Assembly: GCF_000299335.2 (NCBI RefSeq)
Contig: NZ_CP004387.1
Coordinates: forward strand, 2,046,001 to 2,110,000
From: Isoalcanivorax pacificus W11-5
GTDB lineage: Bacteria > Pseudomonadota > Gammaproteobacteria > Pseudomonadales > Alcanivoracaceae
Direction: 5' to 3'
DNA: 64,000 nt
This document shows, piece after piece, positions 17,862-33,511 of the stretch. The notes beneath the pieces were generated by a model. It was given only the letters and a program-made list of their open reading frames with translations. It did no database searches and was not told the DNA's origin. The translations under genes were made by a program, and so were the position numbers. Numbering within the stretch: the first letter of the stretch is position 1; each line of letters opens with the position of its first letter.

Positions 17862-17879
17862 ACCCCGATCTAATCGCAC
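17697..17879 (-). CDS. Possible small antisense protein upstream of the 104-residue frame
   Basis: 60 residues from a GTG with AAGGTG ahead: begins MRLDRGSYATPKDEFSEVFL. Composition is plausible, and it would form a two-gene unit with the frame at 17343-17657. It overlaps the end of the Zn-finger frame and the start of the next plus-strand gene, so both strands cannot be equally real here. Confidence 0.3.
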   Translation of the reverse strand: MRLDRGSYATPKDEFSEVFLHRLPTYGQILAVHGQRLIQFYAQYVGQRINPVPLEAPTMF

Positions 17880-18166: not shown

Positions 18167-18348
18167 CGGAAGATGAGCTGATTTACGCGCTGGCGATGGA
18201 TGTACCGGCGATGTATCAGGGTTTCAGCATTGAAACTTCCTATGGGGAAATGCGCTTCAAAGGCGAAGATGCCGAGCGGGTTGCCATGCTGGTGGAAGTG
18301 CTGTTGCGGCTCCGGCTTGATGCCCTGCGCTCTGGGGGTGCTGCATGA
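18163..18348 (+). CDS. Small phage protein, unknown
   Basis: 61 residues, acidic N-terminus MTEDELIYALAMDVPAMYQG. Overlaps both neighbours by ATGA. No family recognised. Confidence 0.55.
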   Translation: MTEDELIYALAMDVPAMYQGFSIETSYGEMRFKGEDAERVAMLVEVLLRLRLDALRSGGAA

Positions 18349-18440
18349 AGCGATTTTCACGGGATGACGTGCGCGGCGTAGTTGAGGGTTTTGTTGTGCT
18401 GCTGATCATTGCGGCGCTGACATGGCAGGGGACTATCTGA
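18345..18440 (+). CDS. 31-residue single-helix peptide
   Basis: MKRFSRDDVRGVVEG then a hydrophobic FVVLLIIAALTW and a short end. GGGGGTG lies just before the ATG, and the frame overlaps the gene before by ATGA and touches the rep start (TGATG). A small membrane peptide, perhaps a virion or lysis peptide; inference. Confidence 0.5.
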   Translation: MKRFSRDDVRGVVEGFVVLLIIAALTWQGTI

Positions 18441-19549: not shown

Positions 19550-20337
19550 GTGATGACGGCGCGGAACGGGGTGCGTGGCGTGCACGCTTCGTTGCAAAGG
19601 CGATGGACCCGGCCAAAGGCACCGCGTCGGGCTATATCGCCAAGTACATAGCGAAAAACATTGATGGCCGTGGCGTGCGTGGTGCGCTGCAGTTGCAGGA
19701 TGACGACAGCGGGCTGGCGATGGAGGCCGGGGCGGAGCGTGTGCGCGCCTGGGCGAGTGCGTGGGGCATCCGGCAGTTCCAGCAGATCGGCGGGCCGAGT
19801 GTCACGGTGTGGCGCGAATTACGGCGCCTGATGAGTGAGTGCGAGCCGGGCACTGATGACCTGTTCGGGAATGTTGCCGTTGAAGCAGCGGGCGATGCGG
19901 CAGATTGCGGTGATTGGGCCGCCTTCGTTGAGTACATGGGTGGGCCGTGCCTGCCGCGCTGTGAGCGGCCAGCGTTGCCGGCGTACTGGATCGAGAATAC
20001 CCCTATAGGTACACCGGGCCGCGATGTCACTAGGTACGGTGACGATGCGAAGGGGGCCGTATTCGGTGTGTGGGTCAGGCGTTGCGAGGTCGTGGACGGT
20101 GAGTTTTATGGTCCGGTGCTGACACGGTTCTACCGCTGGGAAATCGAGCACCGCCCGCCTGCGCGTCAGGCGCTGCCGGACGGGCCGGGCGTGGATGCCC
20201 TGTTGGGCGCTGGTCTGATGTCAGAAATGTCAGGGCAGCGCCTGATGGCGCTGGTTGATGGGATTTTCGGTGCCGGTGCGCAGCACCGGGACCGTAATGC
20301 GGCGCCGGCAGGCGGCGCCTTGGAGTTCTGTCAGTAA
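19528..20337 (+). CDS. Rolling-circle Rep (gpA family), C-terminal half with YxxxY
   Basis: 269 residues from an in-frame GTG, continuing the gpA alignment: [17 protein letters not shown], then the two-tyrosine catalytic motif [12 protein letters not shown] that nicks and rejoins DNA. The GTG at 19528 is simply the first start-like codon; no ribosome site is visible, so separate translation is doubtful. Read with the half before it, the frame must step back one base. One CCTATAGG palindrome lies inside it at 20002. Confidence 0.8.
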
Positions 20338-20657
20338 CTGTACGGGTGAGATTCACCGGGGGATATCGAGATGGCAAGAAAGAACGGCGCCGTGACCGTG
20401 GCGCGAATGGACTGCATGTCACCGGACTGTGGCGAGCGTGTGGCGGTGTTTCAGAACGCGCTGGGGTATCTGTACACCCGGTGCCCGGAGTGCGCCTGTG
20501 ACCAGCGCAAGGGCGCCGGGCATCAGGCATACATCTGGCGCCATATGGAGCCGGTGGCGGGCGTGGAAATTGTGCGCCCGCCGAATTTGCCGGACGGGTA
20601 CGGGGAGCCGGGGCAGCCGCCGCAGTCCGCGCCGCCCGTGCCGGCGGAACCTATAGG
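20002..20657. repeat. CCTATAGG palindromes, copies 1 and 2
   Basis: Copy 1 at 20002-20009 and copy 2 at 20650-20657. Copy 2 runs into a perfect odd palindrome TAGGTAC-A-GTACCTA (20654-20668). Both lie inside coding sequence. Copy 3 is at 22004-22011. Confidence 0.7.
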
Positions 20658-20778
20658 TACAGTACCTACGGTGCAGAGTGAAAAGCGGGGTGGTGGTCTG
20701 GTCTGGTTGGCGCTGGGCCTGTTGGGTGTCGGCGTGGCCACGGTGGCCAGCGCCGCAGGTGCGGGGAGTCAGGTATGA
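20371..20778 (+). CDS. Zn-ribbon protein with C-terminal membrane helix
   Basis: 135 residues. Cysteine pairs in CMSPDCGERV and RCPECACDQ suggest a zinc ribbon; a proline-rich linker follows, then a hydrophobic LVWLALGLLGVGVATVASAA. Such small one-helix proteins surround the capsid gene in membrane-containing phages, so a virion or packaging role is inferred. Ends in ATGA with the next gene. Confidence 0.6.
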   Translation: MARKNGAVTVARMDCMSPDCGERVAVFQNALGYLYTRCPECACDQRKGAGHQAYIWRHMEPVAGVEIVRPPNLPDGYGEPGQPPQSAPPVPAEPIGTVPTVQSEKRGGGLVWLALGLLGVGVATVASAAGAGSQV

Positions 20779-21347
20779 GCAAGGGCAAGGTGGAAGGTAT
20801 GGACGCTGAACAGATCGACGGTGCCGAGTTGGTGCAGGAGCCGGGGCAGGGGCCTGCGCAGCAGTCGCTGGACAATCTGGACGCGCTGGACGCTGCCGAG
20901 CAGGCGGCGGCAACGCCGGAGGCCAGTGCGGAGTATGAGGAACAGCGGCAACAGAACGAACAGGCGGCGCAGTTGGGCGCGCATATGGCAGTAGGTTTTA
21001 CCGCGAAGATGCTGGAAATGCGGCTGCCCTACCTGCGGATCAGTGAGGGCGACAAGCGCGAGCTGGCCGAGTCGTTGGCGCCGGTGCTGGCCAAGCACGG
21101 CGGGGGTGGTGAGGTGCCGGCGTGGCTGGTGCCCTATCTGGATGAAATACGCTTCGGCATGAAACTGGCCGGCGTTGGCTTCGGATTGTGGTTGCAACAT
21201 CAGGCGCACGTCGCGCAGCAAGCGATAGAGCGTGCGCGGCAGGAGAGCCGGGAGCCACTGCGCCGGGTGGTTGAGCAGCCGCCGGCAATGGTGATCAGCG
21301 CGCCGGCTGTGGTGGCTGATCCGCTGGACCCCAGCGCGCAGGAGTGA
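20775..21347 (+). CDS. Phage protein of unknown function upstream of the ATPase
   Basis: 190 residues. An acidic, Gln/Ala-rich N-terminal half (predicted helical) is followed by RLPYLRISEGDKRELAESLA and a weakly hydrophobic helix GMKLAGVGFGLWLQH. Position directly before the packaging ATPase, two bases apart, suggests a partner in packaging or a membrane protein of the virion; inference only. Confidence 0.55.
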   Translation: MSKGKVEGMDAEQIDGAELVQEPGQGPAQQSLDNLDALDAAEQAAATPEASAEYEEQRQQNEQAAQLGAHMAVGFTAKMLEMRLPYLRISEGDKRELAESLAPVLAKHGGGGEVPAWLVPYLDEIRFGMKLAGVGFGLWLQHQAHVAQQAIERARQESREPLRRVVEQPPAMVISAPAVVADPLDPSAQE

Positions 21348-21349
21348 CC

Positions 21350-22030
21350 ATGCGATATCAACCCGTCAACCCGGACCCGTCGAAGCGAGCGCGGCACACG
21401 CTGTACCTCGCCACCACGGGCGGCGGCAAGTCTCAGGCCGTGAGGCAGAACCCGGTGATCCCGTGGGCGGACAAGTCAAGCCGGATCATCATGTGGGATC
21501 AGGCTGGGGATTACCCCGGCCTGCATTGCGACACCCGGCAGGGCTTCGTGCGAGCGCTGAAAAAGGGGCTGGCCAGCGGCGGCGGCGTGCAGGTTGCCTT
21601 TGCGGGCGTTGCCACGGTGGAAAATTGGGAATGGTGGTGTGAAGTGTGCTGGTCGGTGCTGGATGGCCGCTATGACACGCACATGATCGCGGAAGAGCTG
21701 TCAGCGGTTTGCGCGGGCGCAGGCAAGGCAACGCCGAATGCGGCGGTGCTGCTGAACCAGTCGCGGAAGTACGGTGGCATTTTCCACGGTGTCAGCCAGA
21801 AGCCGCAGGAGGTGGCCAAGACCTTCTATGATCAGGCGGCATTCAAGTGGATCGGCCAGCAGAAAGGGGTGGCAATGCAGCGCCGGATGGCGGCGGAAAT
21901 CGGTGTCACGCAACAGGACATTGCCGGGCTGGAGGAGTTGCAGTTTTTCGTGGATGACGGCAGCGCCCGGCGGCCTGAGCTGGTCAAGTTGAAGTACCGG
22001 AAACCTATAGGGGTGAGGTGGGCGGCCTGA
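21350..22030 (+). CDS. Genome-packaging ATPase, HerA/FtsK superfamily (PM2 P9-like)
   Basis: 226 residues, the size of the PM2 P9 ATPase. Walker A is ATTGGGKSQ near the N-terminus, Walker B-like IIMWDQAGDYPG, and a later sensor region VLLNQSRKYGGIFHGVSQKP. It would pump the genome into the membrane vesicle of preformed capsids. Start at ATG 21350 is set by AGGAG five bases ahead, overlapping the stop of the preceding gene region. Zot of filamentous phages is related but longer and has a membrane helix, absent here. Confidence 0.85.
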   Translation: MRYQPVNPDPSKRARHTLYLATTGGGKSQAVRQNPVIPWADKSSRIIMWDQAGDYPGLHCDTRQGFVRALKKGLASGGGVQVAFAGVATVENWEWWCEVCWSVLDGRYDTHMIAEELSAVCAGAGKATPNAAVLLNQSRKYGGIFHGVSQKPQEVAKTFYDQAAFKWIGQQKGVAMQRRMAAEIGVTQQDIAGLEELQFFVDDGSARRPELVKLKYRKPIGVRWAA

Positions 22031-22049
22031 CCGCCCCGTACCTAACGGG

Positions 22050-22064
22050 TGTTGTACCTATAGG
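22050..22064 (+). repeat. 15-bp direct repeat, left copy, around the VapBC cassette
   Basis: TGTTGTACCTATAGG, identical to 22822-22836. It contains CCTATAGG copy 4. It lies just after the ATPase gene, whose last codons hold copy 3 (22004-22011). Confidence 0.75.
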
Positions 22065-22068
22065 GCTG

Positions 22069-22086
22069 TGGTAAGCTGTCTTACCA
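22069..22086. promoter_or_regulatory. Operator-like inverted repeat before vapB
   Basis: TGGTAAG-CTGT-CTTACCA, 7-base arms with a 4-base spacer, 22 bases before the antitoxin start. AbrB-type antitoxins usually bind such palindromes in their own promoter. Confidence 0.6.
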
Positions 22087-22107
22087 GACTTACAGGAGGG
22101 CCGCCCA

Positions 22108-22386
22108 ATGGCAGAAACAGAGGTCAGCATTTCCACGAAAGGGCAGGTAGTGATCCCCAAGGCGCTGCGGGATGCCATGCATTGGAAGGCCGGGCAAAAG
22201 CTGGTGATTGAGCAGGTCGGTAGCCGGGTGGTCATCCGGGAAAAGCCGACAGCCAAAAAGCATAGCATCCGTGAGGTGGCTGGCATGTTGAGCGAGTACG
22301 CGAAGGGCAGGCCACCAACAGAGTCGGAAATGAGCGAGGCCATAGGGCGGGGCATCGCTGACGAATACAGGAAAAGCATGAAATGA
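22108..22386 (+). CDS. vapB: AbrB/VapB-type antitoxin
   Basis: 92 residues with a swapped-hairpin AbrB DNA-binding domain: STKGQVVIPKALRDAM and VIEQVGSRVVIREKP. The C-terminal part wraps the toxin in this family. AGGAGG eight bases ahead. Overlaps the PIN toxin gene by ATGA, the standard arrangement. Likely keeps the prophage in the cell or blocks other phages; inference. Confidence 0.9.
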   Translation: MAETEVSISTKGQVVIPKALRDAMHWKAGQKLVIEQVGSRVVIREKPTAKKHSIREVAGMLSEYAKGRPPTESEMSEAIGRGIADEYRKSMK

Positions 22387-22775
22387 TCGTGGCGGACACC
22401 AATGTTGTTTTGCGCGTGCTGGTGCGAGATGACGAAAAACAAGAGGCGCAGGTGCTGGACGTGATAGCGCGTGAGGGTGTGCTGGTCCTTGATTCTGTGC
22501 TGCTGGAAGCCCGGTGGGTAATGGAGGGCTTCTATGGTATGTCGCGTGAGAAGATCGCGGCGGGGCTGGTGGCGCTGTTGACCTCGGCAGAGGTCGAAGC
22601 GGAGTCACCTTACATGGTCAAGGCGATACAGTGGTATGGCGCTGGAATGGATTTCGGGGATGCAGTGATATTGGCCGGCGCGAACCGTCACGGCGCGGAC
22701 ACGCTGGTCACCTTCGACAAGGCGTTTATCAAAAAGGCCAAGGGTAAAACCTCATGCGCTGTGCGTCAGCCATGA
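22383..22775 (+). CDS. vapC: PIN-domain VapC-type toxin ribonuclease
   Basis: 130 residues. Acidic residues of the PIN active site: Asp5 in VADTNVVLRVL, Glu in LLEARWVMEGFY, and the pair in GMDFGDAVILAGAN / LVTFDKAF. Mg-dependent RNase, held by the antitoxin encoded in front. No membrane or signal sequence. A terminator follows. Confidence 0.9.
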   Translation: MIVADTNVVLRVLVRDDEKQEAQVLDVIAREGVLVLDSVLLEARWVMEGFYGMSREKIAAGLVALLTSAEVEAESPYMVKAIQWYGAGMDFGDAVILAGANRHGADTLVTFDKAFIKKAKGKTSCAVRQP

Positions 22776-22793
22776 CCTCAAAACAGACATGAC

Positions 22794-22817
22794 AACCCGC
22801 TCCGGCGGGTTTTTTTA
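22794..22817 (+). terminator. Rho-independent terminator after vapBC
   Basis: AACCCGC-TCCG-GCGGGTT followed by seven T. It separates the toxin-antitoxin cassette from the late genes. Confidence 0.88.
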
Positions 22818-22821
22818 TGCC

Positions 22822-22839
22822 TGTTGTACCTATAGGTAC
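22822..22839. repeat. 15-bp direct repeat, right copy, with 14-bp palindrome
   Basis: TGTTGTACCTATAGG again (22822-22836), extended here to a perfect palindrome GTACCTATAGGTAC (22826-22839). Fifth copy of CCTATAGG. With the copy at 22050 it brackets exactly the operator, vapBC and terminator. Confidence 0.75.
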
Positions 22840-22942
22840 GGTACATCTTTTCGCTTCCATCCTGACCACCCGCCGCGCTTTCCTGAATAGGCACACCGGG
22901 ATGCACACCCGGAAGAACCGGGCCACCCGCCCGGCACACACG

Positions 22943-22973
22943 ACACGGCGCCCGCTCCGGCGGGCCGTGTTTT
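22943..22973 (+). terminator. Long GC-rich terminator hairpin before the late genes
   Basis: ACACGGCGCCCGC and GCGGGCCGTGT arms with a TCCG loop, then four T. Together with the terminator at 22794 it isolates the late genes, so a late promoter should lie between 22840 and 22999 or read-through must occur; I could not fix one. Confidence 0.7.
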
Positions 22974-22998
22974 CGGCTATCAGGAAAAGGGGCAACAA

Positions 22999-23097
22999 AT
23001 GGGCATTCTCAAGAATATTGGTCTGGGCGCGCTGGGCGCTGCGGGTCTGATGCTGCTGGCAAAGCATGTTCAGCCGGTCGGCAAAATCCTGCGCTGA
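22999..23097 (+). CDS. 32-residue one-helix virion-type peptide
   Basis: MGILKNIGLGALGAAGLMLL followed by a basic end (KHVQPVGKILR). AAGGGG precedes the ATG. Directly upstream of the capsid gene, where PM2-like phages carry tiny membrane proteins. Confidence 0.6.
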   Translation: MGILKNIGLGALGAAGLMLLAKHVQPVGKILR

Positions 23098-23132
23098 TCG
23101 CGGGATAACGGGGCAAAGGGGAAGGGAAAAAG

Positions 23133-23951
23133 ATGCTGCGTGTACCGCGTGAAGTGAAATCGTTTGATGGTGTGGGCTGGGGCCAGAAACCGCAGGTCAA
23201 GCTGGCCGGTGGCCCCACCTATCATGAAATCGTGTTCGAAACCAATCTGCTTCCGGAGCAGATCGTGATGGCCACGCTGTGGCTGAACGGTGATCCGATT
23301 GTGCAGATGACTGGCCAGCAGATGGTCATGCTCGAACGCTACAAAAAACACTGGGAAGAACCGGGCCGGTTCGTTATGCCGCTGGCTGATATCTCGGGCG
23401 CGAGCCTCGAAGGTCAAAGCCTGTCAGCGCTGCCGACCTTCCCGGCGGATAACCTGATTTTGCAAGTCCAGGTCGCACAGGAGCCGGCGCCGAACACGCA
23501 GGGCAGTGTTGCTCTGAAAGCTGATGCGTGGGTGTCTCGCCATGTGGGCGTGCGGTCGCATATCAGCCGGATCACTACCACCACGTTCAACGCGGGCGCC
23601 AATGGCCGGAACATTCTGGACACCCTGCCGAACAACGGGCAACTGATCCGCCGTATGCACCTGCTGGGCGATATCGCGAACCTGCGTATCCGCAAGGATA
23701 AAAACGTGGTGTACGAGCAGGACGCCGGCAAGAACGTCTACCACCTGAAACGCCGCAAGCTGGCGCCGCAGGCGGGTTATTACCATTTCGATCCTGTGCA
23801 GTCGCACTTCATCCGGGCGGAGCAATTCGATACGCGGGTAGTCGAGTCGCTGGAATTTGAGATGGACGTGAGCACGCCGGGGAACATTGCGATTTTTAGC
23901 GAAGTGCTGGAACCGCTGAAAAATCCGGTAGGCGTGCAGGCGGCAGCCTGA
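23133..23951 (+). CDS. Major capsid protein, PM2 P2-like double jelly roll
   Basis: 272 residues, close to PM2 P2 (269). Its N-terminal course (a hydrophilic start, TYHEIVFETNLLPEQI, LWLNGDPIVQMTGQQMVML) follows the order of P2: a strand, a SQIKNV-like turn, the DG-containing strand and a helix ending in basic residues. Two similar beta-rich halves can be seen, the second starting near the RRMHLLGDIANLRIRKD strand. Trimers would form the capsid shell around the inner membrane. AAGGG lies seven bases before the ATG. Confidence 0.85.
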   Translation: MLRVPREVKSFDGVGWGQKPQVKLAGGPTYHEIVFETNLLPEQIVMATLWLNGDPIVQMTGQQMVMLERYKKHWEEPGRFVMPLADISGASLEGQSLSALPTFPADNLILQVQVAQEPAPNTQGSVALKADAWVSRHVGVRSHISRITTTTFNAGANGRNILDTLPNNGQLIRRMHLLGDIANLRIRKDKNVVYEQDAGKNVYHLKRRKLAPQAGYYHFDPVQSHFIRAEQFDTRVVESLEFEMDVSTPGNIAIFSEVLEPLKNPVGVQAAA

Positions 23952-24012
23952 TATCGGAACGGGGGACACTGGCCGGCTAAGTCCGGCCAGTTATTTCTGC
24001 AAGGGGGAGAAC

Positions 24013-24336
24013 GTGCTCGGTTGGCTTGAAAAAACCGCAAAGCAGGTGCGTGACGCTGCCAGCGAAACGCTGGAAGGCATCGGCGAAGACGTGGCCGGCG
24101 CGCTGGTGGGGGCCGTATCTATTCCACCGAAAACCACTACCGACAACGGCAAAACGCAGGTGGACGTGGGCGACAACGGGACCGGGGGCACCGTGGTGCA
24201 GCCGACGCCGACCGGCGTTGTGGGCGGGATGACCGCCGGGCTGCCGTCATGGGCGGTGCCGGTGTCGTTGACGGTGGCCGGGCTGACGGTGGCCACTGTG
24301 GTGGTGGGGCTGGTCATTGGGGGGCGTAAGAAGTGA
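24013..24336 (+). CDS. Virion membrane protein, C-terminal helix
   Basis: 107 residues from GTG with GGGGGAG four bases ahead. An amphipathic N-terminus (MLGWLEKTAKQVRDAASETL), a Thr/Gly linker and a C-terminal helix (AVPVSLTVAGLTVATVVVGL) ending in basic residues. The layout repeats in the next two genes, as if the three are assembly relatives. ATGA-type overlap (GTGA) with the next gene. Confidence 0.6.
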   Translation: MLGWLEKTAKQVRDAASETLEGIGEDVAGALVGAVSIPPKTTTDNGKTQVDVGDNGTGGTVVQPTPTGVVGGMTAGLPSWAVPVSLTVAGLTVATVVVGLVIGGRKK

Positions 24337-24557
24337 TTGGCGTGCCGGGTATTTCAACGGGGGGCGGGGGCATCTCCGGGGGCATGGCGCAGTCGGGTGC
24401 GCAAGCCTCCGGCGGTACTCGTGGAAGTTCCAGTGTCGACCTGTCCTATAACCCCAGCGGCAAAGTGCCGGGCTGGGTGACACCGGTCGGCATCGGCTTG
24501 GCGATCCTGGCCGCCGGCACGCTGGTAACGGTCGCTGTGCGCGGCAGGGGGCGATGA
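24333..24557 (+). CDS. Virion membrane protein, glycine-rich
   Basis: 74 residues from GTG. Gly/Ser-rich head (STGGGGISGGMAQSG), then a helix VTPVGIGLAILAAGTLVTVA and a basic tail RGRGR. Same plan as its neighbours: soluble head, one helix near the C-terminus. Confidence 0.55.
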   Translation: MIGVPGISTGGGGISGGMAQSGAQASGGTRGSSSVDLSYNPSGKVPGWVTPVGIGLAILAAGTLVTVAVRGRGR

Positions 24558-25045
24558 TGTTCGGGGGGAGCAGTAGCAGTAACACCACGCTGGACACGGG
24601 CGATAAAAATTACCAACAGGCTGGAAACCAAGGGCTGAACCTCGCCGGTATGGATGTGCGCCGGAACAGCAGCGTCAACGCCACGGACAATTCCGGCAAT
24701 CAAGGCTTTGTGGTGGGCAATATCACTGCGCAGCGCAACAGCACCACGAATGTGAATCTGACACAAACGGATCATGGTGCGGTGGCCGGCGGCTTGGCGC
24801 TGGGAAGTCAGGCGCTCACAGAAATGAGCGATTTTGGCAGCGAGGCGTTGTTCAGCATGCAGATGCTGGCGCAGCAACAACAGGCAGCAAGCCGTGATCA
24901 GGTGAGCGAAATTGGCCGGTTGGCCGAGACGTTCCGCTCTGACGGCGCGAGCACCACGCAGCGCAACATGCTGTATCTGGGTGGCGGCCTGCTGGTGTTC
25001 AGTGCGGTGGCCATTATCGCGGTGACGTGGAAGGGGAAAAAGTAA
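24554..25045 (+). CDS. Virion membrane protein, Asn/Ser/Thr-rich head
   Basis: 163 residues. The head is rich in Asn, Thr and Gly (NNSTTNVNLTQTDHG-like), as in beta-helical or fibre-like shafts; a Gln-rich helical part follows, then LLVFSAVAIIAVTW and a lysine end. May be the internal-membrane protein linked to the vertex. Start 24554 or 24557. Confidence 0.55.
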   Translation: MMFGGSSSSNTTLDTGDKNYQQAGNQGLNLAGMDVRRNSSVNATDNSGNQGFVVGNITAQRNSTTNVNLTQTDHGAVAGGLALGSQALTEMSDFGSEALFSMQMLAQQQQAASRDQVSEIGRLAETFRSDGASTTQRNMLYLGGGLLVFSAVAIIAVTWKGKK

Positions 25046-25705
25046 ATGCGTGAAGTGCTGCAAGTAGGCGAACACGTCACCCGCGCTGCGCAGGGCGTCT
25101 ATGTGTTCATCCGGCAGGCTGACGGGCCGGTGTATATCACGGCGCTGATGCAGGATGGCCGGCAGTCCGGGCATGAGCTGTACCACGGGCAACAGGTGGA
25201 GCTTGTTGGTGAGATCCGCGAGCTGAAAATCCAGAACCTGCATGCTGCCGTGAACACGGTGGTGATCGGTACAGGATATGGCCGTTTCCACCCGCGTCAG
25301 GACGGGCAGGAAATGACCATCGTCGGCCAGTCCGATCCGCTGACAGTTGGTAACGATGATCAGCACCCGCTGCATGTCATCAATGAGTATGAACAAACGG
25401 TCGTCACTGACCCGGCGCAGCCGCTGGATGTGAAGCACCAGCCGCCGGCAGGCCAGGTCAACGCGCTGCCGGAAATTGTGCCGGACGTGACCGGCGCGGT
25501 GGTGCCGGCCAGCGCCGGGCGTCGGGCGCTGCTGCTGCGTGCTGCGCCGGACAATACAGGTCTGATCTGGCTATCCGGCGCCGCAGGTGTGGGGCTGCCA
25601 CTGGCGGCCACTGACGGCCTGTTGAAACTGGAAACCACGGCAGCGGTTGATCTGTTGGCCACCAATGCCACCGATAAAATCTTTGTGATGGAGTTGATCG
25701 CATGA
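25046..25705 (+). CDS. Late structural protein, possible vertex/penton protein
   Basis: 219 residues, beta-rich, no membrane segment. It falls in two parts: an N-terminal domain (REVLQVGEHVTRAAQGVYVF ... ELKIQNLHAAVNTVVIGTG) and a C-terminal domain with RRALLLRAAPDNTGLIWLS, which looks like the DUF-type beta-sandwich common in phage vertex and head-decoration proteins. Directly upstream of the spike module genes. Penton role is inference. Confidence 0.5.
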   Translation: MREVLQVGEHVTRAAQGVYVFIRQADGPVYITALMQDGRQSGHELYHGQQVELVGEIRELKIQNLHAAVNTVVIGTGYGRFHPRQDGQEMTIVGQSDPLTVGNDDQHPLHVINEYEQTVVTDPAQPLDVKHQPPAGQVNALPEIVPDVTGAVVPASAGRRALLLRAAPDNTGLIWLSGAAGVGLPLAATDGLLKLETTAAVDLLATNATDKIFVMELIA

Positions 25706-25884
25706 ATGTAGCGAATCGCATTTCAACGCTGGCCGAGCAGAACGATGTGGAGTTTGAGGCACGCGGCAATGATGCAAACGATATTGCAGCGCTGGCCGAG
25801 GCACTGGAAATCGAACTGGATTATGCCGGCAGCGATGATAACGCGCTGGACTTCTTGGAAGCTGAGTTGGCAGAGGCCGCATAA
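25702..25884 (+). CDS. 60-residue stand-alone spike-module protein
   Basis: It carries two copies of a motif with the core YAGSDDNALDFLEAEL (second copy) and ARGNDANDIAALAEALEIEL (first copy). The same module opens the next gene. ATGA overlap with the gene before. It may be a plug or an assembly partner for the spike base; inference. Confidence 0.6.
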   Translation: MNVANRISTLAEQNDVEFEARGNDANDIAALAEALEIELDYAGSDDNALDFLEAELAEAA

Positions 25885-25886
25885 CA

Positions 25887-26750
25887 GTGCCGGCTATTGT
25901 GGTGCCGGCTGCGGCTGATCTGGTGGCGCTGAACGCGGTGGCAGGTCAGGCGGGGCTGCCTGTCGAGTATAACGGCAGCGTACGCAACGCCATTGAAGCG
26001 GTGGCCGCTGCTGGGGGCGTCTCCCTGAACTATTCAGGCAGCGACAGGAATGCAATAGAAGTTCTAGCCAGGCTTCTTGGCGAGAAAAATATCGTTTGCG
26101 CGTGGCCACTGTCGGCAGACCAGAACGAAATATCAGTTGTGGCACCGGGAGCGATTCGTCCGACCTTAGAAAATAATGATATGACGATTGTGCATACACT
26201 GAAATCTCAGTTGGTTGAATGGGAGCAGTATTACGCAATGTCAGCAGGTATGGCTACGGGAGAAGCGCCATTCGCAGACCTTTCCGATGGCGTGGTGGCA
26301 ATGCAAATTAGCTTTGATGAACTGCCGCAAGTATCCAGCAATGCCGGTGTTTTAACTGGGATTGCATTGCTTGGTGGGGGCGGGGAAGTGCTTGCTGTTC
26401 AAGTTAGTATCTCGGCGGAATACGAGAGCGGATATCAGTTGATTGTGGGCGGTATGGATAGTGAACCACCGCAGCAAATAGAGCTTTCTGGTAGGCCCTT
26501 TGCGATGGGGATTTCTCTCGACAATGCAGCCAAGACTGCGACGGTAAAAATTGACGGTCAACAGATTGCAGTAGTTTCTTGGGGCGGAGGAAATAGCGCC
26601 CAGCCCATTATGATAATTAATGAATTTTCAGGGGTATCTAGCGAGCACGCCGGACAAATTTATCGCATCACATTGAATACAGATGCGGCACATATAGATG
26701 CCGCTAACGTGCTTCCCGGTGCGCTCGATTTCTGCGGCAATACGATATGA
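25887..26750 (+). CDS. Spike/receptor-binding protein with repeated N-terminal module
   Basis: 287 residues from GTG. Residues about 20-65 hold two motif copies (VEYNGSVRNAIEAVAAAGG and NYSGSDRNAIEVLARLL) shared with the 60-residue protein before it. The rest is a beta-sandwich with LamG/ConA-lectin look (FAMGISLDNAAKTATVKIDG then QQIAVVSW). Base composition falls clearly from about 26040 on, in the receptor-binding part. PM2's spike P1 is of similar size and sits at the same genome region. Calcium or sugar binding cannot be shown. Confidence 0.65.
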   Translation: MPAIVVPAAADLVALNAVAGQAGLPVEYNGSVRNAIEAVAAAGGVSLNYSGSDRNAIEVLARLLGEKNIVCAWPLSADQNEISVVAPGAIRPTLENNDMTIVHTLKSQLVEWEQYYAMSAGMATGEAPFADLSDGVVAMQISFDELPQVSSNAGVLTGIALLGGGGEVLAVQVSISAEYESGYQLIVGGMDSEPPQQIELSGRPFAMGISLDNAAKTATVKIDGQQIAVVSWGGGNSAQPIMIINEFSGVSSEHAGQIYRITLNTDAAHIDAANVLPGALDFCGNTI

Positions 26751-27313
26751 GGAAGAGGGCAATAATGAGCGTTGTGGCTATTACTGGCGTACTGCTTCTG
26801 TTGTACGCACATCGCGGCAAGCGCCGTGATGACCTGAATCTGAAATATTTTTCACAGGCAGAGTTCGGCGCATATTGGCCGATGATGAATATTGGCCTGC
26901 TGAAAAAGCTGGATGCATTCCGCGCTGCGCTCGGCTACCCGGTGGCGATATCGCCGGCAGCCGGCGCGATAGGCCGCCCGATTATTGGCAGCGACGGTCA
27001 ACTCGGTGAGGCGGAGTCAAGCGCGGAAAAATCGTGGCACAACTACCTGCTGCACGGCGAGATTATGGCCATTGATGTGATGCCGGTGCCGCCGGGCGGT
27101 GCCACACCGGCAGAACGGCAGCGCTGGGTGGACGTGGCGCGACAAGTGGGCTTCACCGGCATTGGTGTGTATCCGCACTGGCGGCCACGTCCGGGCCTGC
27201 ATCTGGACGTTCGCACGGATCGCACGCCGGATAACCCGGCGACGTGGGCCGGTGTGCGTAATGATCAGGGCAAGCAGGTGTATGTGGGAATTCAGCAGGG
27301 AGTGCTTGCCTGA
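26747..27313 (+). CDS. Membrane-anchored M15-like peptidase (lysin)
   Basis: 188 residues. An N-terminal helix (VVAITGVLLLLYAH) could be a signal anchor. The zinc-peptidase pattern of the M15/VanY-like fold is visible: SWHNYLLHGEIMAIDVMP (His ... Asp) and PGLHLDVR (HxD). It would cut peptidoglycan peptides at entry or release. ATGA overlap with the spike gene; ATG 26765 is an alternative start. Both sites read in the same frame. Confidence 0.7.
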   Translation: MRKRAIMSVVAITGVLLLLYAHRGKRRDDLNLKYFSQAEFGAYWPMMNIGLLKKLDAFRAALGYPVAISPAAGAIGRPIIGSDGQLGEAESSAEKSWHNYLLHGEIMAIDVMPVPPGGATPAERQRWVDVARQVGFTGIGVYPHWRPRPGLHLDVRTDRTPDNPATWAGVRNDQGKQVYVGIQQGVLA

Positions 27314-27612
27314 TGGCTATTCTGACGGATCGTCAGGCGCTGGGCGTGGCCGTGGGCGGCACGGTGCTGGTGGTGGGCGGCATCTGGTATGCCCGCCGGA
27401 AAATGGCCGCTGTGGCCGATGCGGTGCAGGCAGGGGTCGGGGCTGTAGCAGAGGCAGTGAACCCGGCTGACTCGGGCAATCTGGTCAACCGGGTACATGA
27501 ATGGTGGTGGCAGAACACGGTAGGCCGGGTGACTGGCCAGAAAGAGGGCGGCATCGGCATCTGGCTTGCTGATGTGCTGAATCCGGCGCCGAACGATGAG
27601 GGGGTATTGTGA
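27313..27612 (+). CDS. Small membrane protein of the virion
   Basis: 99 residues. One helix (LGVAVGGTVLVVGGIWYA) followed by RRK, then a long tail with ADSGNLVNRVHEWWWQNTVG and GIWLADVLNP. This tail layout is seen in small proteins of tailless and other membrane-associated phages. It follows the lysin without a gap, so an entry or lysis-related role is possible. Confidence 0.6.
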   Translation: MAILTDRQALGVAVGGTVLVVGGIWYARRKMAAVADAVQAGVGAVAEAVNPADSGNLVNRVHEWWWQNTVGRVTGQKEGGIGIWLADVLNPAPNDEGVL

Positions 27613-27794
27613 AAAAGTTTCTGGAAAAACTGAAAGGGCTGAACGGCAAGATGGTAGGCGTGCTGCTGACCTGCGTGCTGATGGGCGCGGGCGTGCCGGT
27701 ACATCAGGCGGTGACGGCGGGCAATGCAGCCGGCGATATCGTGGACACAATGAAAGGGGGAGTGCGAGAGCATGGCGAAGAAAAAGCGGAGTAA
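27609..27794 (+). CDS. Small protein with N-terminal hydrophobic helix
   Basis: 61 residues from GTG, overlapping the gene before. Basic start MKKFLEKLKGLNGKM then VGVLLTCVLMGAGVPV: a signal-like or membrane helix. A cysteine inside the helix is not in a lipobox context I trust. Late gene, function unknown. Confidence 0.5.
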   Translation: MKKFLEKLKGLNGKMVGVLLTCVLMGAGVPVHQAVTAGNAAGDIVDTMKGGVREHGEEKAE

Positions 27795-27888
27795 TGCCAC
27801 GGCGGCCAAACGGGCAGACGGCACGCTTAAAAAGGGCTGGAAATACGCCAAGGGTGGCCGCCCGGTGCGTGCGAAGGCAAAACGCTGA
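27772..27888 (+). CDS. 38-residue highly basic peptide
   Basis: MAKKKRSNATAAKRADGTLK then GWKYAKGGRPVRAKAKR. About a third of residues are Lys or Arg, so it should bind DNA or the capsid interior; similar tiny basic proteins occur in PM2-like and microvirus virions. Overlaps its neighbours on both sides. Confidence 0.6.
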   Translation: MAKKKRSNATAAKRADGTLKKGWKYAKGGRPVRAKAKR

Positions 27889-28064
27889 TGGAAGCGGGCA
27901 TGACAGAATGGGGCAATCTGGGCCTGAATGGCGCGGCGGTGCTTTTTCTGTACGGGATGAGCCGCGATATCCGCGAGTTGGCCGGCAAGCAGGTCGATAT
28001 GTGGCGCTGGATTGAGAGAATCCGGCGCCACATGTGGCCGAGTGTTTTCTCCAAATCGGAATGA
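27888..28064 (+). CDS. 58-residue phage protein with one weak helix
   Basis: MEAGMTEWGNLGLNGAAVLF and then a charged end DMWRWIERIRRHMWPSV. Starts in a TGATG overlap (ATG 27888, or 27900). A strong terminator follows five bases after the stop, so this is the last late gene. Function unknown. Confidence 0.5.
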   Translation: MEAGMTEWGNLGLNGAAVLFLYGMSRDIRELAGKQVDMWRWIERIRRHMWPSVFSKSE

Positions 28065-28069
28065 CAGTG

Positions 28070-28092
28070 GCCCGCTATCTGCGGGCTTTTTT
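28070..28092 (+). terminator. Rho-independent terminator ending the late operon
   Basis: GCCCGC-TATCT-GCGGGC followed by six T. It overlaps the 3' end of the convergent DUF3653-like gene. Confidence 0.88.
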
Positions 28093-28605
28093 CTGGATGG
28101 CGGATGGTTGCGGATTCAGGGGCATGGTGTTGTCAACATGCAGGAAGTCCGCATCTATAGAAAGCCGGTCAAGCAGGCGTTCCTGTATCACGGTGTTCTG
28201 TCGTTCCAGCCGGTGCTGCTGGTCTATGCTTCCATTCGGTGACCAGTAGTCAATATGGCGCCCTGTGATCCGCTGTAGTTCTCGGCGCCAGTCATCGGCG
28301 AACTGGCGCAGGAACCACCAGCCTTCCAGCCGTGAGCGGTCCCACCAGTAGCTGTGGTGTGCCCGGTGTTCAAAAAGGGTATCGCCATTAATTCGCCAGC
28401 CGTCCCATTCTGGAAACGGCAGCCAGCCAAAAACATGCATTTCCAGCAGGCGCAAAGATGGCGGTTCAATGTTCCCGGTATCGGCCCAGCGGTGCGCGGT
28501 GCGCACCGATCTGCCGGTTACTTCTGCTGCTTTCCTGATGCTGATAGACCCGTAAAGTCCAGTTTTCTGGCATTCGAGCCTTATTCTTTTATACTCAATT
28601 TTCAT
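28075..28605 (-). CDS. DUF3653-like phage regulator
   Basis: 176 residues. A helix-turn-helix SIRKAAEVTGRSVRTAHRWA is followed by MHVFGWLPFPEWDGWRINGD and a Trp/Tyr-rich region (SYWWDRSRLEGWWFLRQFAD), the layout of DUF3653 phage proteins. Converges on the late operon and lies next to the right attachment site, so it can control the late genes or excision. It is the only other minus-strand gene with clear phage features. Confidence 0.7.
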   Translation of the reverse strand: MKIEYKRIRLECQKTGLYGSISIRKAAEVTGRSVRTAHRWADTGNIEPPSLRLLEMHVFGWLPFPEWDGWRINGDTLFEHRAHHSYWWDRSRLEGWWFLRQFADDWRRELQRITGRHIDYWSPNGSIDQQHRLERQNTVIQERLLDRLSIDADFLHVDNTMPLNPQPSAIQKKARR

Positions 28606-28710
28606 ATGAACAATATCTTTAATGGCTAAATATTCTGAAATGGCAGGAATCCACCATTTCTATTTGACGTGCGCCCGTGTGTGTGCATCCGGCGCCTTGC
28701 CATTATATCA

Positions 28711-28738
28711 ACTGCGCATAATGTATATTATGTTAAAT
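28711..28738 (+). other. dif: dif site (attR), complete
   Basis: XerC arm ACTGCGCATAA (28711-28721), centre TGTATA (28722-28727), XerD arm TTATGTTAAAT (28728-28738). The centre and XerD arm equal the E. coli dif sequence as I know it; the XerC arm differs in the first two bases only. This should be the working chromosome-dimer resolution site now. It lies 28 bases from the stop of the LVGG protein gene. Confidence 0.93.
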
Positions 28739-28765: not shown

Positions 28766-29143
28766 TTAGCCTCCTACTAAAGCCACCAGCCTGACAAAGC
28801 TCACTTTCGTGTTGGGTGTTACCAGAACGGTCTGATCCAGACTGGTCATCTGTTCCTGATTCACGAAAAGGAAAAAACCACTACTTGAGAAGGCCTCAAG
28901 GGCAATGCTGCATTGAATCTCGGGATCCACCGGCCGCTGTTGCGCATTGCCACCCCCCTGTCTTACCAGGCCTGTCCGCGCCTCGGTGCTGTCAGCATCT
29001 TCGTTCAGCTTCTGGACTTCCTGGATAACGCGAGTCCTTATAAGCTCCCTGACGCTGATTGCCTGAGATGGAAAAATGAAGACGCTCTCGGCAACGACTG
29101 CGCCAGAGGAAGATTCATCCACTACCTTTACCTTGACGGACAT
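28766..29143 (-). CDS. Small protein with ubiquitin-like C-terminus (LVGG)
   Basis: 125 residues, no signal or membrane helix. Strand MSVKVKVVDE, the segment AISVRELIRTRVIQEVQKLN (a helix), a loop of about 30 polar residues, then FFLFVNQEQMTSLDQTVLV and VSFVRLVALVGG at the very end before the stop. The strand-strand-helix-strand order and the terminal Gly-Gly fit a beta-grasp (ubiquitin/MoaD-like) protein. It followed the DUF4132 gene with a 16-base gap and AAGGGAG site before the IS insertion. Conjugation or sulfur-carrier role is inference; no E1, E2 or JAB protein is visible nearby. Confidence 0.65.
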   Translation of the reverse strand: MSVKVKVVDESSSGAVVAESVFIFPSQAISVRELIRTRVIQEVQKLNEDADSTEARTGLVRQGGGNAQQRPVDPEIQCSIALEAFSSSGFFLFVNQEQMTSLDQTVLVTPNTKVSFVRLVALVGG

Positions 29144-29242
29144 ATTGCTCCCTTGGCGCTCAAGCCTGCTCAGGCACCATCCCCATCTGCGAGAGGATGC
29201 TATGAACCTGTCCCGCGAAAACGTACGCCAAGAAGCCGTGAA

Positions 29243-30109
29243 TCAAGCTGCGTGTTTCAGTCTGCTTGCATAGTCATTGGGTGACACGTATCCGAGGGCT
29301 GAGTGCAACCTTGTGGGGTTGTAAAAGCCGTGGATGTAGCTGGCAATAGCGTTATGTGCCTCCGCTTTGCTGGCATACGCGCCCGTGACTTCCTCGTTTT
29401 TGAGCGTCGCGAAGAAGCTCTCAGCCACGGCGTTATCCCAGCAATTACCTTTGCGACTCATGCTCGGCACGAAGCCCAGCGCAGCGATCATCGCACGGAA
29501 GTCACCGCTCGCATATTGGCTGCCACGATCGGAGTGGAACAGCACGCCCTCACCGACCGGCGAAGCGGTCCAGGCATTGAGGAATGCCTGCTGCACCAAG
29601 TCGTCAGGCATGCGCTCGGACAGGCTGTAGCCGAGCACCTGCCGGGTTTGCAGGCTGAGTACCACAGCCAGATACAGCCAACCCTCCCTGGTGGGAATGT
29701 AGGTAATATCTCCCACCCAGGCCGGCACAGGACTGTCTACGGCGAACTGGCGATCCAGCAGGTTCTGAGCCACCTGCCGCCTGTGCTGGCTATCGGTAGT
29801 GCGGGGCTTGAAGCCGCCCTTCACCTTGCCCTGAAGCGCCTCCTCGCGCATCAGGCGGGCAACACGCTTGTGGCCGACAACATGAGCACGGGCTCGCAAC
29901 GCCCTGACCAGACGTGGACGGCCGTAGGTCCGGCGGCTGACCGCATGGATGGCATGAAGGTCCGCCCGAAGCATCGCGTCTGAATCCCGGCGCGGTGCTG
30001 ACTGCCGACGCAGGTAGTCATAGAAACCGGACACCGAGACTGCCAGCACTCGGCATAGCAACCTGACCGGAAACAGAGCCCGTTCACGAGCGACGAAGGC
30101 GTATTTCAC
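29243..30109 (-). CDS. IS3-family transposase OrfB (DDE integrase domain)
   Basis: 288 residues. Catalytic acids: Asp in VGDITYIPTR, Asp in FHSDRGSQYA, Glu in VAESFFATLKNEE. HTH_21 region near the start (SRRTYGRPRLVRALRARA). Made mainly as a fusion with OrfA through a -1 frameshift at the A7G run (30137-30146 complement). Transcription from the IS points toward the LVGG gene 100 bases on. Confidence 0.95.
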   Translation of the reverse strand: MKYAFVARERALFPVRLLCRVLAVSVSGFYDYLRRQSAPRRDSDAMLRADLHAIHAVSRRTYGRPRLVRALRARAHVVGHKRVARLMREEALQGKVKGGFKPRTTDSQHRRQVAQNLLDRQFAVDSPVPAWVGDITYIPTREGWLYLAVVLSLQTRQVLGYSLSERMPDDLVQQAFLNAWTASPVGEGVLFHSDRGSQYASGDFRAMIAALGFVPSMSRKGNCWDNAVAESFFATLKNEEVTGAYASKAEAHNAIASYIHGFYNPTRLHSALGYVSPNDYASRLKHAA

Positions 30110-30399
30110 TTGGACTCCTTGGCGAAGAACGCCGTCGCTTTTTTTAAGATTTCACGCTCGATCTTGAGCGTGGCATTCTCGGCTCGGAGCCGCTCCAGCT
30201 CACTTTCCAGGTCGCTAACCGGTGCACGCGAGGGTGAGCTCACGGGCCGCTCGGCCCGTGATGCATCCAGCCAGTTGGCCAGTGTTTTGACGGATATATC
30301 CAGCTGTCGTGCCGCTTGAGCACGACCGATTGAGCCGGCCAGCGTGACCGCCTGAGCCTTGAAATCGTCTGTGTAGCGACGACGGGGTATACGTTGCAT
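30106..30399 (-). CDS. IS3-family OrfA (helix-turn-helix, leucine zipper)
   Basis: 97 residues: HTH in ARQLDISVKTLANWLDA and a leucine-zipper-like coiled coil LESELERLRAENATLKIER for multimers. Binds the terminal repeats. Its 3' end overlaps orfB by four bases, with the slip run TAAAAAAAG 30 bases earlier. Confidence 0.93.
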   Translation of the reverse strand: MQRIPRRRYTDDFKAQAVTLAGSIGRAQAARQLDISVKTLANWLDASRAERPVSSPSRAPVSDLESELERLRAENATLKIEREILKKATAFFAKESK

Positions 30400-33300
30400 G
30401 AGAACCTCCAGGTGCGATGAGAATATCGCTTCCTGGCGTCCGTTTCAGCGGGGCAGGTTCACTATGGTCTGTAATCTTGTCGTCGCTTGCCAACAGAGCT
30501 GCCTTGGAAAGAATCAAGGACAATATATGGTCACCTTCGAAAGGTAGCATGACGTTGTCCTGGGGAGAGCCTTGAACAATGCAAAGATACTGGTCCCCAG
30601 GCTCCATAAGCACGTTGGCTGAGCCGAGATGGATCTTGTATGCTCCCAGGTTGCCTTGAACCCGCAAGAATCTGTCGTCCATTTTGAGGCGGTCTTTAAA
30701 GGCCAGCCGCGGCACAAGAGCCTGAAGCACGTCCCGGCGTGTTCTGCCGAACTCGGATAGCTTTCCGAAGCTGACTTTTTGCCATTCAGCGTCCCGGTTA
30801 TACCAGTTTGGATCATTACCTATTCCCGCTACGCCCACAAACAGATCGGCATCGCGCATAATCTCTGACAAAACGAGAGGATCAACATCCTTCAAGTCTA
30901 CGCTGACTTGATCATCGTCATCTTCTGTAAAGAATTTCAGCGCGTTTATCGCCACGCAGGCGTACATACCGCTATCGCTCTGGCCATACGCGTCGGCACC
31001 AAAAGCCTCAAGTTCTGCAATCAGGCCGTGCTCCTTCAACTTTCTTGTCGCTGAGTTTTCAGCGCCACCGCACCACATCCCTCCCCGGGTCTGGCTCCAG
31101 CCCCGTTGCTCTGCCAGCGCATGAAATTGGCTCTGCTTGAGTATGTGATGGGCAAACCGAAAGCTGTTATACCGCTCTTTACGTTCGGCGTCAGTAAGCA
31201 GGTAGACCTCGCGATGTGCCTGCTTGAATGGCTGGGAAAACCCGGCATGGGAAATATACGCTCGCCAGGCCAGTATCTCTCCGCCATCAGCCATTGCGGG
31301 ATGCCACAAACAAACCGTGGCCCCCTTCTTCGGAGAAAAAATTTGTCCGTCGTGGGTCACAAGGCTGGCATCGCGATATATAACATCATATGCGACTCCC
31401 TGCTGCACAATGCGCCAGACAAGATGTCTTGCCATAAAGCCAATAAGCTTGTGGTTGAGGTATCGACTCTCCCAATCCTCGAAATCAATTGCTGAAGGCC
31501 GAAAGTACAATCCTTCGAGTCGGGCTGCGTGAGCAATGCTCGCGCTCTTCAATTCTTTAATCATTGTCTTTATTTCTTTGATTCTTTCCGCGTTATCCTT
31601 GGCAATTTCCGCAGGCGGCGACTTTCTTTTCTTTCCTTTATACTCCCATGAAACTTCGCATTGGCCGATCGATGTCATGCGAACCCTGGCCACACATGCA
31701 TCGATGGAGGTCGTCAGTTCTCCGACATCAGACAGACCATAATCAGGAATCATGGAGTCTTCGAGGCTCTCAAGAGTTGCGCCTCGATTCTTTGCCGCTT
31801 GCTCCAGAATGCGGTTTATGTTTATCCGTGCCGCGTTGTACTTGATTTTTGACCTTAGGGTGACCACTTCCTTAATGCCTGTCATTCCGGGCATGCTGGC
31901 CAGGGTGTGCGCTGCCGCATTGGCAATCTTTACGTTGCGCATCCCCACCCATCGGATCTTTTTGTACATCTGCTCGGCGAGTTCGCGCAGAACAACAGCC
32001 ATCTCATCGTCGTTATGACGAAGGGTGCTCCATATGATCCCCCTGAGAAGCCTGGTGTTATTTTCGCTTATTTGATACGATGGCAGGTTGTTGTGAGGAT
32101 GTATTTCTCGAAACTTGTCATCGGTGAGTCGATCCTGCTTGAGCAAGGGAAGCCATTCCAGAAGCAGCTTCCGATGCACTGACGGCCCAATAATGTCAAT
32201 TAAACCGTTCGCTTCTTTCAGCCATTTTGACGACGGCTTGGAGCCATTGTTGTCAAGGCAGTGCCGAATCAGTTTTCGCCATCCGTCCAACTGATCGGCA
32301 AGCAGATTATCCATATCAGAAAAGGCCTGCCTGACCCATGGCTCGCCTACGTCCATGGATCGGCGAATTTCTTCACGATATAGGTGCTCGCCCTCCACCG
32401 GATTCAGCATTTGAAGCTTGGTTCGTGCGCCGAGCTTCTTTAATTGTGTGGCAATCTTCTTTGCACCCGCCAGGGAAAGTGCCAGCTCAAGTGGCATCTT
32501 GCCGTTGTTGTCAGACAGGTTGACGTCTGCTCCAAGCTCGATAAGCAGCGATATCGCCTCGCGAAACTTCCGGCTTACTGCATACGACAGCGGCGTTTCT
32601 TCGGATGATGAGTGATTGACACTCGCCCCCTTTTCCTTGACCAGATATTCAATAAATGCCAGGTTTCTGCGGCGCAATGCGATAAGCATGGACGCCACAT
32701 AGTCTTTGCCCGGCAAAGCAGCAAAGTCTTCCTTCGCCAGTAGCTCATCCAGGAGCTCTTTGGGAGCTGTCGAGCATCCCGCTAACTGATCGAGCAGCTG
32801 CTCTCCATGCCCGACAGTGGCCCCTTTCCTGAATAATTGAAGAGCCAGCGGGCAATATCCCGCCTTCAATGATTCTGCGAGTGGCGACCCCATTCCATTG
32901 GGGGATATCGAATTGATACTACACCCTTTTTGAAGAAGAAATTCCACCATGCTGTCGAGAGACCGTGTCCGACTGGCCTGCTCTTCCGGCGCGGGGAAAG
33001 CCATCATTCGGGAATATCTTTCATCAGTGGCCGATATTGTGAAACTGATGATGGAATACTGCGCGGCGTGCTCTACCTTCAACAGGTCAAGACCCATAAT
33101 GCATAAATTTTCAATATACTGAGTGTCACCTGAGACCAGAGCCTCTTTCAGCCCTGATTGCATCAGCCCCTTTACGGCTCGGGAGTCTTCTTCAGGAAAA
33201 GCAATACCGTTGTCCAAAAGTATCCTGATCATTTGCAAGGACAAGTCGGGAGCTTTACGGTAGCCGCCTGCGGCCAGACTAATAATGCTGCGATATGAAC

Positions 33301-33511
33301 GGCTGTCTTCGGTCAGCCTTAACCCCCTGCTGAAAAGCAGGGCAAGCAAATCGGGTCTGCAGAAGATTACAGCCAGTTCAAATATACTCTCACTGGCCAA
33401 GGGATTGCTCTTCTGATCAATTATTTCAGGATCATTGTCCAGCAGATCTGTCAAATCATCACAGGAGGGATTGCTAAAGAAAAATTTCCGAACGTCGTGA
33501 TTAATACCCAT
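30215..33511 (-). CDS. Ankyrin-DUF4132 protein, C-terminus replaced by IS sequence
   Basis: The present frame codes for 1098 residues, of which the first 1016 are native. N-terminal third: ankyrin-like repeats (ETPLSYAVSRKFREAISLLI, ELGADVNLSDNNGKMPLELA). C-terminal half: DUF4132 (WESRYLNHKLIGFMARHLVW) and the closing block DRFLRVQGNLGAYKIHLGSA with DQYLCIVQGSPQ. The IS3 element cut the gene 13 codons before its native stop; removing it and one CTA restores an in-frame gene of 1029 residues ending ...SQMGMVPEQA at 29160. The present tail of about 80 residues comes from the IS. DUF4132 activity is unknown. Base composition is more AT-rich than the neighbours. Confidence 0.83.
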   Translation of the reverse strand: MGINHDVRKFFFSNPSCDDLTDLLDNDPEIIDQKSNPLASESIFELAVIFCRPDLLALLFSRGLRLTEDSRSYRSIISLAAGGYRKAPDLSLQMIRILLDNGIAFPEEDSRAVKGLMQSGLKEALVSGDTQYIENLCIMGLDLLKVEHAAQYSIISFTISATDERYSRMMAFPAPEEQASRTRSLDSMVEFLLQKGCSINSISPNGMGSPLAESLKAGYCPLALQLFRKGATVGHGEQLLDQLAGCSTAPKELLDELLAKEDFAALPGKDYVASMLIALRRRNLAFIEYLVKEKGASVNHSSSEETPLSYAVSRKFREAISLLIELGADVNLSDNNGKMPLELALSLAGAKKIATQLKKLGARTKLQMLNPVEGEHLYREEIRRSMDVGEPWVRQAFSDMDNLLADQLDGWRKLIRHCLDNNGSKPSSKWLKEANGLIDIIGPSVHRKLLLEWLPLLKQDRLTDDKFREIHPHNNLPSYQISENNTRLLRGIIWSTLRHNDDEMAVVLRELAEQMYKKIRWVGMRNVKIANAAAHTLASMPGMTGIKEVVTLRSKIKYNAARININRILEQAAKNRGATLESLEDSMIPDYGLSDVGELTTSIDACVARVRMTSIGQCEVSWEYKGKKRKSPPAEIAKDNAERIKEIKTMIKELKSASIAHAARLEGLYFRPSAIDFEDWESRYLNHKLIGFMARHLVWRIVQQGVAYDVIYRDASLVTHDGQIFSPKKGATVCLWHPAMADGGEILAWRAYISHAGFSQPFKQAHREVYLLTDAERKERYNSFRFAHHILKQSQFHALAEQRGWSQTRGGMWCGGAENSATRKLKEHGLIAELEAFGADAYGQSDSGMYACVAINALKFFTEDDDDQVSVDLKDVDPLVLSEIMRDADLFVGVAGIGNDPNWYNRDAEWQKVSFGKLSEFGRTRRDVLQALVPRLAFKDRLKMDDRFLRVQGNLGAYKIHLGSANVLMEPGDQYLCIVQGSPQDNVMLPFEGDHILSLILSKAALLASDDKITDHSEPAPLKRTPGSDILIAPGGSHATYTPSSLHRRFQGSGGHAGRLNRSCSSGTTAGYIRQNTGQLAGCITGRAARELTLACTG

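Follow-up and report, generated by a model that had tools for sequence, protein, structure and literature searches.

Within a 64,000-nucleotide stretch of the Isoalcanivorax pacificus W11-5 genome (contig NZ_CP004387.1, positions 2,046,001 to 2,110,000; hereafter, the window), we find a small ubiquitin-like protein (Ubl) that ends in a free Gly-Gly (GG) and belongs with a large ankyrin-repeat protein carrying the domains DUF4132 and DUF7737. Five observations bear on what the two proteins do together: the fold of Ubl, its GG end, the conserved gene pair, the linkage of the pair to E1 genes in some relatives, and a single invariant cysteine in DUF7737 that is lost together with GG. We tentatively favor, at a little under an even chance, a reading in which Ubl is activated by an E1 and handed to the DUF7737 cysteine of DUF4132, with DUF4132 as the acceptor. 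The features at the window locus that bear on this reading are the following, with residues in window numbering unless stated otherwise:

28766..29143, minus strand: Ubl gene (open reading frame, AlphaFold2 model, VIA-align fold, GG invariant in alignments A1 and A2, ratio of non-synonymous to synonymous substitution rates, dN/dS)
30215..33511, minus strand: gene of the ankyrin-DUF4132-DUF7737 protein (Pfam; comparison with the intact relative L011)
32420..32683, minus strand: ankyrin repeats, residues 277-364 (PF12796, E 3.1e-11)
31097..31636, minus strand: DUF4132 domain PF13569, residues 626-805 (E 1.6e-42)
30461..30745, minus strand: DUF7737 domain PF24879, residues 923-1017, its 3' end cut by an insertion sequence, IS (E 5.8e-34)
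30581..30583, minus strand: codon of Cys977, the proposed Ubl acceptor, C606 in A3 numbering (conservation in the Ubl-linked DUF4132 clade)

The Ubl reading frame encodes 125 residues and closes with VRLVALVGG directly before the stop codon, as a preliminary description of this DNA had stated in reporting a free LVGG end. That description also proposed a beta-grasp fold, and structure prediction had been set beforehand as the check. An AlphaFold2 model built from a 30-row alignment (predicted local distance difference test score, pLDDT, of 78) begins with two strands, continues with a long helix and an additional inserted one, and ends in four strands (bb-alpha-alpha-bbbb). Its top match by VIA-align is MoaD/MOCS2A (5mpo_A; Z 8.0, 2.5 A over 74 residues), followed by the HOIL-1L UBL, ISG15, Hub1, and ubiquitin at Z of about 7. 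Such Z scores are near what common arrangements reach, but almost every match listed has the ubiquitin fold; Foldseek alone gives weak E-values. As modeled, Ubl is a ubiquitin-like beta-grasp protein. None of the Pfam, NCBIfam, PHROG, or PADLOC models matches it, the ThiS/MoaD Pfam models match 0 of 30 family members at E 1, and hhalign of the family with MoaD returns a probability of 1%. The idea that Ubl belongs to an established family of Pfam, NCBIfam, or PHROG was thus rejected, and no solved structure related to Ubl or DUF4132 was found.

GG is invariant in Ubl alignments A1 and A2 and is missing in one clade. While a single-sequence scan for relatives gave no match, an alignment-based scan of named genomes gave >500, of which 80 were kept, from Bacteroidota, Actinomycetota, Planctomycetota, Cyanobacteriota, Acidobacteriota, Armatimonadota, Chloroflexota, Gemmatimonadota, Verrucomicrobiota, Myxococcota, Calditrichota, and Pseudomonadota. 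The search pattern contained GG, so its presence in these 80 is not independent evidence; the independent evidence is that a stop codon immediately follows GG in every canonical homologue, including the loci found without the pattern.

The pairing with DUF4132 is also widespread. Once duplicates are removed, 108 Ubl loci remain, of which 99 carry a same-strand DUF4132 gene of the DUF7737 type within 3 kb, and in 79 of them the two genes are separated by -40 to +60 bp. Ubl is the first gene of the pair in 88 loci; at the window locus, DUF4132 lies upstream and Ubl downstream on the same strand. Nine loci have no paired gene: four lie at contig ends (including L071, with a partial DUF4132 after Ubl), and five are genuine orphans (L027, L028, L036, L054, and L062), each with a DUF4132 elsewhere in its genome. 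Among 391 genomes of the host order, Ubl occurs in 8 and DUF4132 in 13, and every genome with Ubl also has DUF4132 (hypergeometric p 1e-13). Five DUF4132 genomes gave no Ubl match. In one of them, G163, a divergent Ubl with the ending LIGG lies six bases upstream; the other four have a DUF4132 of another type without DUF7737, in three cases in neighborhoods with SWIM, MoxR AAA, or DUF5682 genes. Conservation of both GG and the gene pair had likewise been set beforehand as a check, and both are kept across phyla.

Several further observations concern the spread of the pair. A verrucomicrobial locus (L078, 6471-9320) has three Ubl copies in a row ahead of one DUF4132. The Moraxella pair (L014) falls inside Bacteroidota in the DUF4132 tree, which suggests horizontal transfer, and an Acetobacter plasmid (L160, 3861-6659) carries a DUF4132 with a DUF7737-like end that lacks Cys at the Cys position, with no Ubl within the stretch. 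IMG/VR holds no Ubl and phage sequences give no match to DUF4132, so a viral origin of the pair was rejected. Against a defense-system library, Ubl has no match, DUF4132 matches by its ankyrin repeats only, and the E1 domain is matched by E1-E2 models.

A comparison of 75 Ubl-linked DUF4132 proteins shows a single cysteine that never varies: Cys977, located in DUF7737 within the motif YKIHxGSxNxxMxPNDQYLCIVP. DUF7737 itself is missing from yehI-type DUF4132 proteins. At 13 Flavobacteriales loci (L143-L155), a divergent Ubl ends in LAGSYW, LSGTYW, or similar and the DUF4132 protein is mostly larger, at about 1670 residues, and at one Bacteroides plasmid locus Ubl ends in LSGRLW. All of these non-GG loci have Ser, Asn, or Ala at the Cys977 position, with Ser or Asn in the Flavobacteriales variant. 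The nearest GG-tailed relatives of this clade in the tree (two Deinococcus, an actinomycete, and G163) keep the cysteine, and a GG-tailed Ubl is always accompanied by it, including in the divergent L123, Deinococcus, and G1346. There is no GG locus without Cys and no non-GG locus with it. This association is suggestive rather than conclusive, and it supports the earlier proposal that DUF4132 may be the partner enzyme or the target.

The same description had noted no E1 gene nearby. This holds at the window locus, where the genome's one ThiF-family gene, MoeB-like, lies away from Ubl, and fails in general: at eight Bacteroidota loci, a ThiF-family (PF00899) gene overlaps or abuts the DUF4132 stop codon. 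Four of the linked E1s were scanned and score 202-243 bits to PF00899, and one compared with the PDB has MoeB and ThiF as its closest structures. In an alignment of seven, the GGLG nucleotide loop, the Arg of NxxRQ, and a Cys aligned with the catalytic Cys are all kept, and the zinc-binding CxxC pairs of MoeB are absent. A ThiF-family gene is present in 35 of 36 Ubl genomes, but such genes are common anyway. In some genomes the operon E1 stands alone: it is the sole ThiF protein in genomes L056, L059, and L074 and the sole intact one in L090. Genomes without another ThiF gene thus make up 4/7 of those with a linked E1 versus 1/29 (Fisher p 0.003) when L090 is counted, and 3/7 (Fisher p 0.018) when it is not. 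An E1-dependent Ubl would need such a dedicated E1 wherever the genome offers no other.

In the mechanism we favor, the small Ubl would be made mature, its Gly-Gly free without processing, and a MoeB/ThiF-type E1 would adenylate this end; some Bacteroidota encode this E1 in the operon, and the window genome would most likely rely on its one chromosomal MoeB. Once activated, Ubl would pass to the single invariant cysteine of DUF7737 as a thioester or acyl-persulfide, and DUF4132, as the acceptor, would be either a transferase with none of the folds known for E2 or E3 or a protein that is switched when Ubl is loaded onto it. Its N-terminal part is variable (ankyrin in the window, HEAT-like or long unrelated regions elsewhere) and may select the partner or target. 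The probable role of the system is in responding to stress or DNA damage, Deinococcus being the precedent. Adenylation, the Ubl-Cys bond, target choice, and a stress role outside Deinococcus are steps that we infer. A stronger form, in which DUF4132-DUF7737 is a new class of Ubl transferase that carries a thioester on Cys, needs no E2/E3 of known fold, and uses exchangeable N-terminal repeats to choose targets during stress, strikes us as rather unlikely.

Several results weigh against the favored mechanism. In the tree, the non-GG loci form one clade, and the 13 loci are therefore counted as one event of GG/Cys co-loss; independent support from each of them was rejected on this ground. Other positions changed on that branch as well: of 72 columns that are near-invariant, 24 differ in the non-GG clade, though few of the 24 hold in the divergent GG member L123 and only about eight, Cys977 among them, are conserved in the divergent GG member G163. 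The non-GG clade also retains the gene pair, and both proteins therefore also have a joint role without GG chemistry. E1 linkage is seen in Bacteroidota only, and one Ubl genome, G773 (a metagenome-assembled genome), has no E1 match. Among the neighbors of the pair in about 90 clustered loci, there is no recurrent gene for an E2, a JAB peptidase, a RING protein, or a rhodanese. Finally, the DUF4132 model (pLDDT 87) shows no convincing fold match by Foldseek and VIA-align against the PDB: HEAT-like matches are confined to the N part, and a YugN-like match at model residues 409-531 (Z 8.6, 108 residues) is too weak to use, so that no fold identity was assigned.

These points leave room for other accounts. 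Ubl could be a sulfur carrier, with the E1 making a thiocarboxylate of GG, as happens in ThiS, MoaD, Urm1, and TtuB, and DUF4132 thiolating an RNA, a cofactor, or a protein while its Cys holds a persulfide. SAMP, TtuB, and Urm1 combine sulfur carriage with protein conjugation and need only an E1 for the two. MoaD is the closest fold to Ubl, the linked E1s are of the sulfur-carrier class MoeB/ThiF, the window genome has MoeB alone, no E2 or deconjugase gene lies beside the pair, and the Deinococcus homologue is predicted to be MoaD/SAMP1-like (PMC9650054). However, the neighborhood has no recurrent gene for biosynthesis, a rhodanese, a desulfurase, or tRNA modification, the ThiS/MoaD profiles fail to match as noted above, and a gene as patchy as this one (8/391 order genomes) is unlike housekeeping sulfur carriers. 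We judge this account unlikely, with enough in its favor to be taken seriously.

The retention of the pair in the Flavobacteriales and Bacteroides loci without GG and without Cys is what would be expected if Ubl were a non-covalent subunit, its tail docking in a pocket of DUF7737 and GG and Cys being packing residues that were jointly replaced by SYW and Ser. That clade also keeps most of the residues that are invariant in DUF7737 (Y, H, G, S, K, and D). Such docking leaves unexplained both the operon-linked E1s beside GG-type Ubls and the fact that, whatever the phylum, the tail of each canonical member stops exactly at GG, and we regard it as unlikely, though a serious rival. It is very improbable that DUF4132 is a substrate only, with Ubl ligated to one of its lysines to switch its activity without onward transfer: the one-to-one pairing, the lack of E2/E3, an invariant lysine in DUF7737 (K632 in A3 numbering, window K1003), and the ability of SAMP and Urm1 to conjugate with an E1 alone fit, but this Lys is retained in the non-GG clade and so, unlike the Cys, does not track GG.

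The favored mechanism draws its physiological setting from Deinococcus radiodurans, in which tblastn and profile searches find a 134-residue protein ending in LTALAGG, encoded two bases before the gene of a DUF4132 protein whose DUF7737 keeps the cysteine. By homology, we take this pair to be drA0165-drA0166. These genes go up upon DdrO depletion, and the DRA0166 protein increases with mitomycin C in an IrrE-dependent manner (PMC8533742). Gamma rays and H2O2 both induce DR_A0165 (SEP068184), which binds thioredoxin and whose deletion raises survival of H2O2; it was regarded as Deinococcus-only, its predicted structure was described as MoaD/SAMP1-like, and a damage-response motif was not found by that group (PMC9650054). 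The searched passages of these two papers mention neither the Gly-Gly end nor a functional link to DUF4132. The family is thus tied to a stress response in one organism; a similar role elsewhere would be an extension from it. The Ubl-DUF4132 system might account for the published oxidative-stress phenotype of DR_A0165.

At the window locus itself, the pair has been interrupted, and the following features complete its description:

29160..29202, minus strand: detached 3' remnant of the DUF4132 gene with an ILSQ motif and the original stop codon (sequence comparison)
29203..30461, minus strand: IS3-family element between both genes (Pfam HTH_Tnp_1 and rve; ends; duplication)
30106-30399: IS orfA
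29243-30109: IS orfB
28713..28738, plus strand: dif core next to the Ubl gene (exact match)

The preliminary description was right that Ubl once followed the DUF4132 gene by 16 bases before an IS came between them: the remnant of the DUF4132 end has its stop codon at 29160-29162, followed by 16 bases and the Ubl ATG. The element has inverted ends TGAACCTG[CT]CCC, is flanked by a 3-bp target duplication (CTA, at 29200-29202 and 30462-30464), and entered 13 codons ahead of the ancestral end of the gene. The present frame of 1098 residues consequently continues as IS-derived read-through after residue ~1018 (the last ~80 residues). In L011, an intact relative from another species of the genus, DUF4132 and Ubl lie 18 bp apart without an IS. 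The Ile and Gln of the conserved ILSQ motif are near-invariant and lie in the severed part; because the IS removed these conserved last residues, the I. pacificus copy of the pair is probably impaired. Between the two species, dN/dS is 0.24 for Ubl and 0.19 for DUF4132, a sign that past purifying selection acted on both genes. A chance reading frame or artefact was rejected on the basis of these ratios and of conservation across relatives.

The island was also correctly described as lying at dif and being AT-richer. A perfect dif core, the single copy in the window (0 expected in shuffles), adjoins the Ubl gene, as it does in the L011 genome, and the guanine-plus-cytosine (GC) content of the region is 50-55% versus 60-66%. 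Beside dif, positions 16800-28700 hold a PM2-like (corticovirus-type) prophage with strong positive GC skew, which includes a P2 coat protein (PF18628/PF25513) at 23133-23951, a GPA-type replication protein at 18422-19549, a P-loop ATPase-like reading frame at 21344-22030, and a PIN-domain protein at 22383-22775 that may be the toxin of a toxin-antitoxin pair.

When compared to known systems, the ubiquitin-like family and its partner DUF4132-DUF7737 are new, whereas the E1 type is known. DUF7737 is not mentioned in the open-licence PMC literature (preprints excluded, few subscription journals), although DUF4132 is, in three papers, and the searched passages of surveys of prokaryotic Ubls (PMC1779556, PMC7159879, and PMC11354881) do not mention the pair. 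Like MoaD/MoeB and ThiS/ThiF, the system combines a free-GG beta-grasp protein with a MoeB/ThiF-type E1, for which MoeB is the best match. Unlike MoaD and ThiS, Ubl is about 125-145 residues long, has a long helical insert, and lacks a ThiS/MoaD Pfam match, and its partner is DUF4132-DUF7737 rather than MoaE or ThiG. The E. coli yehI/molR-type DUF4132 proteins, found with MoxR, SWIM, and DUF5682 genes, share PF13569 but have neither DUF7737 nor Ubl. Archaeal SAMPs, Thermus TtuB, and eukaryotic Urm1 are stress-linked and resemble the present system in using a Ubl and a single E1 with no need of E2/E3; none of them is known to have a large partner of its own that carries an invariant Cys. Bil/Bub and other E1-E2-JAB operons likewise pair a bacterial Ubl that has a C-terminal Gly end with an E1, but at the DUF4132 loci E2 and JAB are absent, Ubl requires no processing, and the E1 is of a minimal, MoeB type. 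DUF4132 is widespread and was previously without a known function; one large clade is now tied to a GG-tailed Ubl, an E1, and a single Cys, which poses the concrete question of whether a covalent bond forms between Ubl and the DUF7737 cysteine. If it does, the pair would constitute a minimal bacterial ubiquitin-like cascade, unlike Bil/Bub, that is spread over a wide range of phyla and belongs to the response of D. radiodurans to DNA damage.

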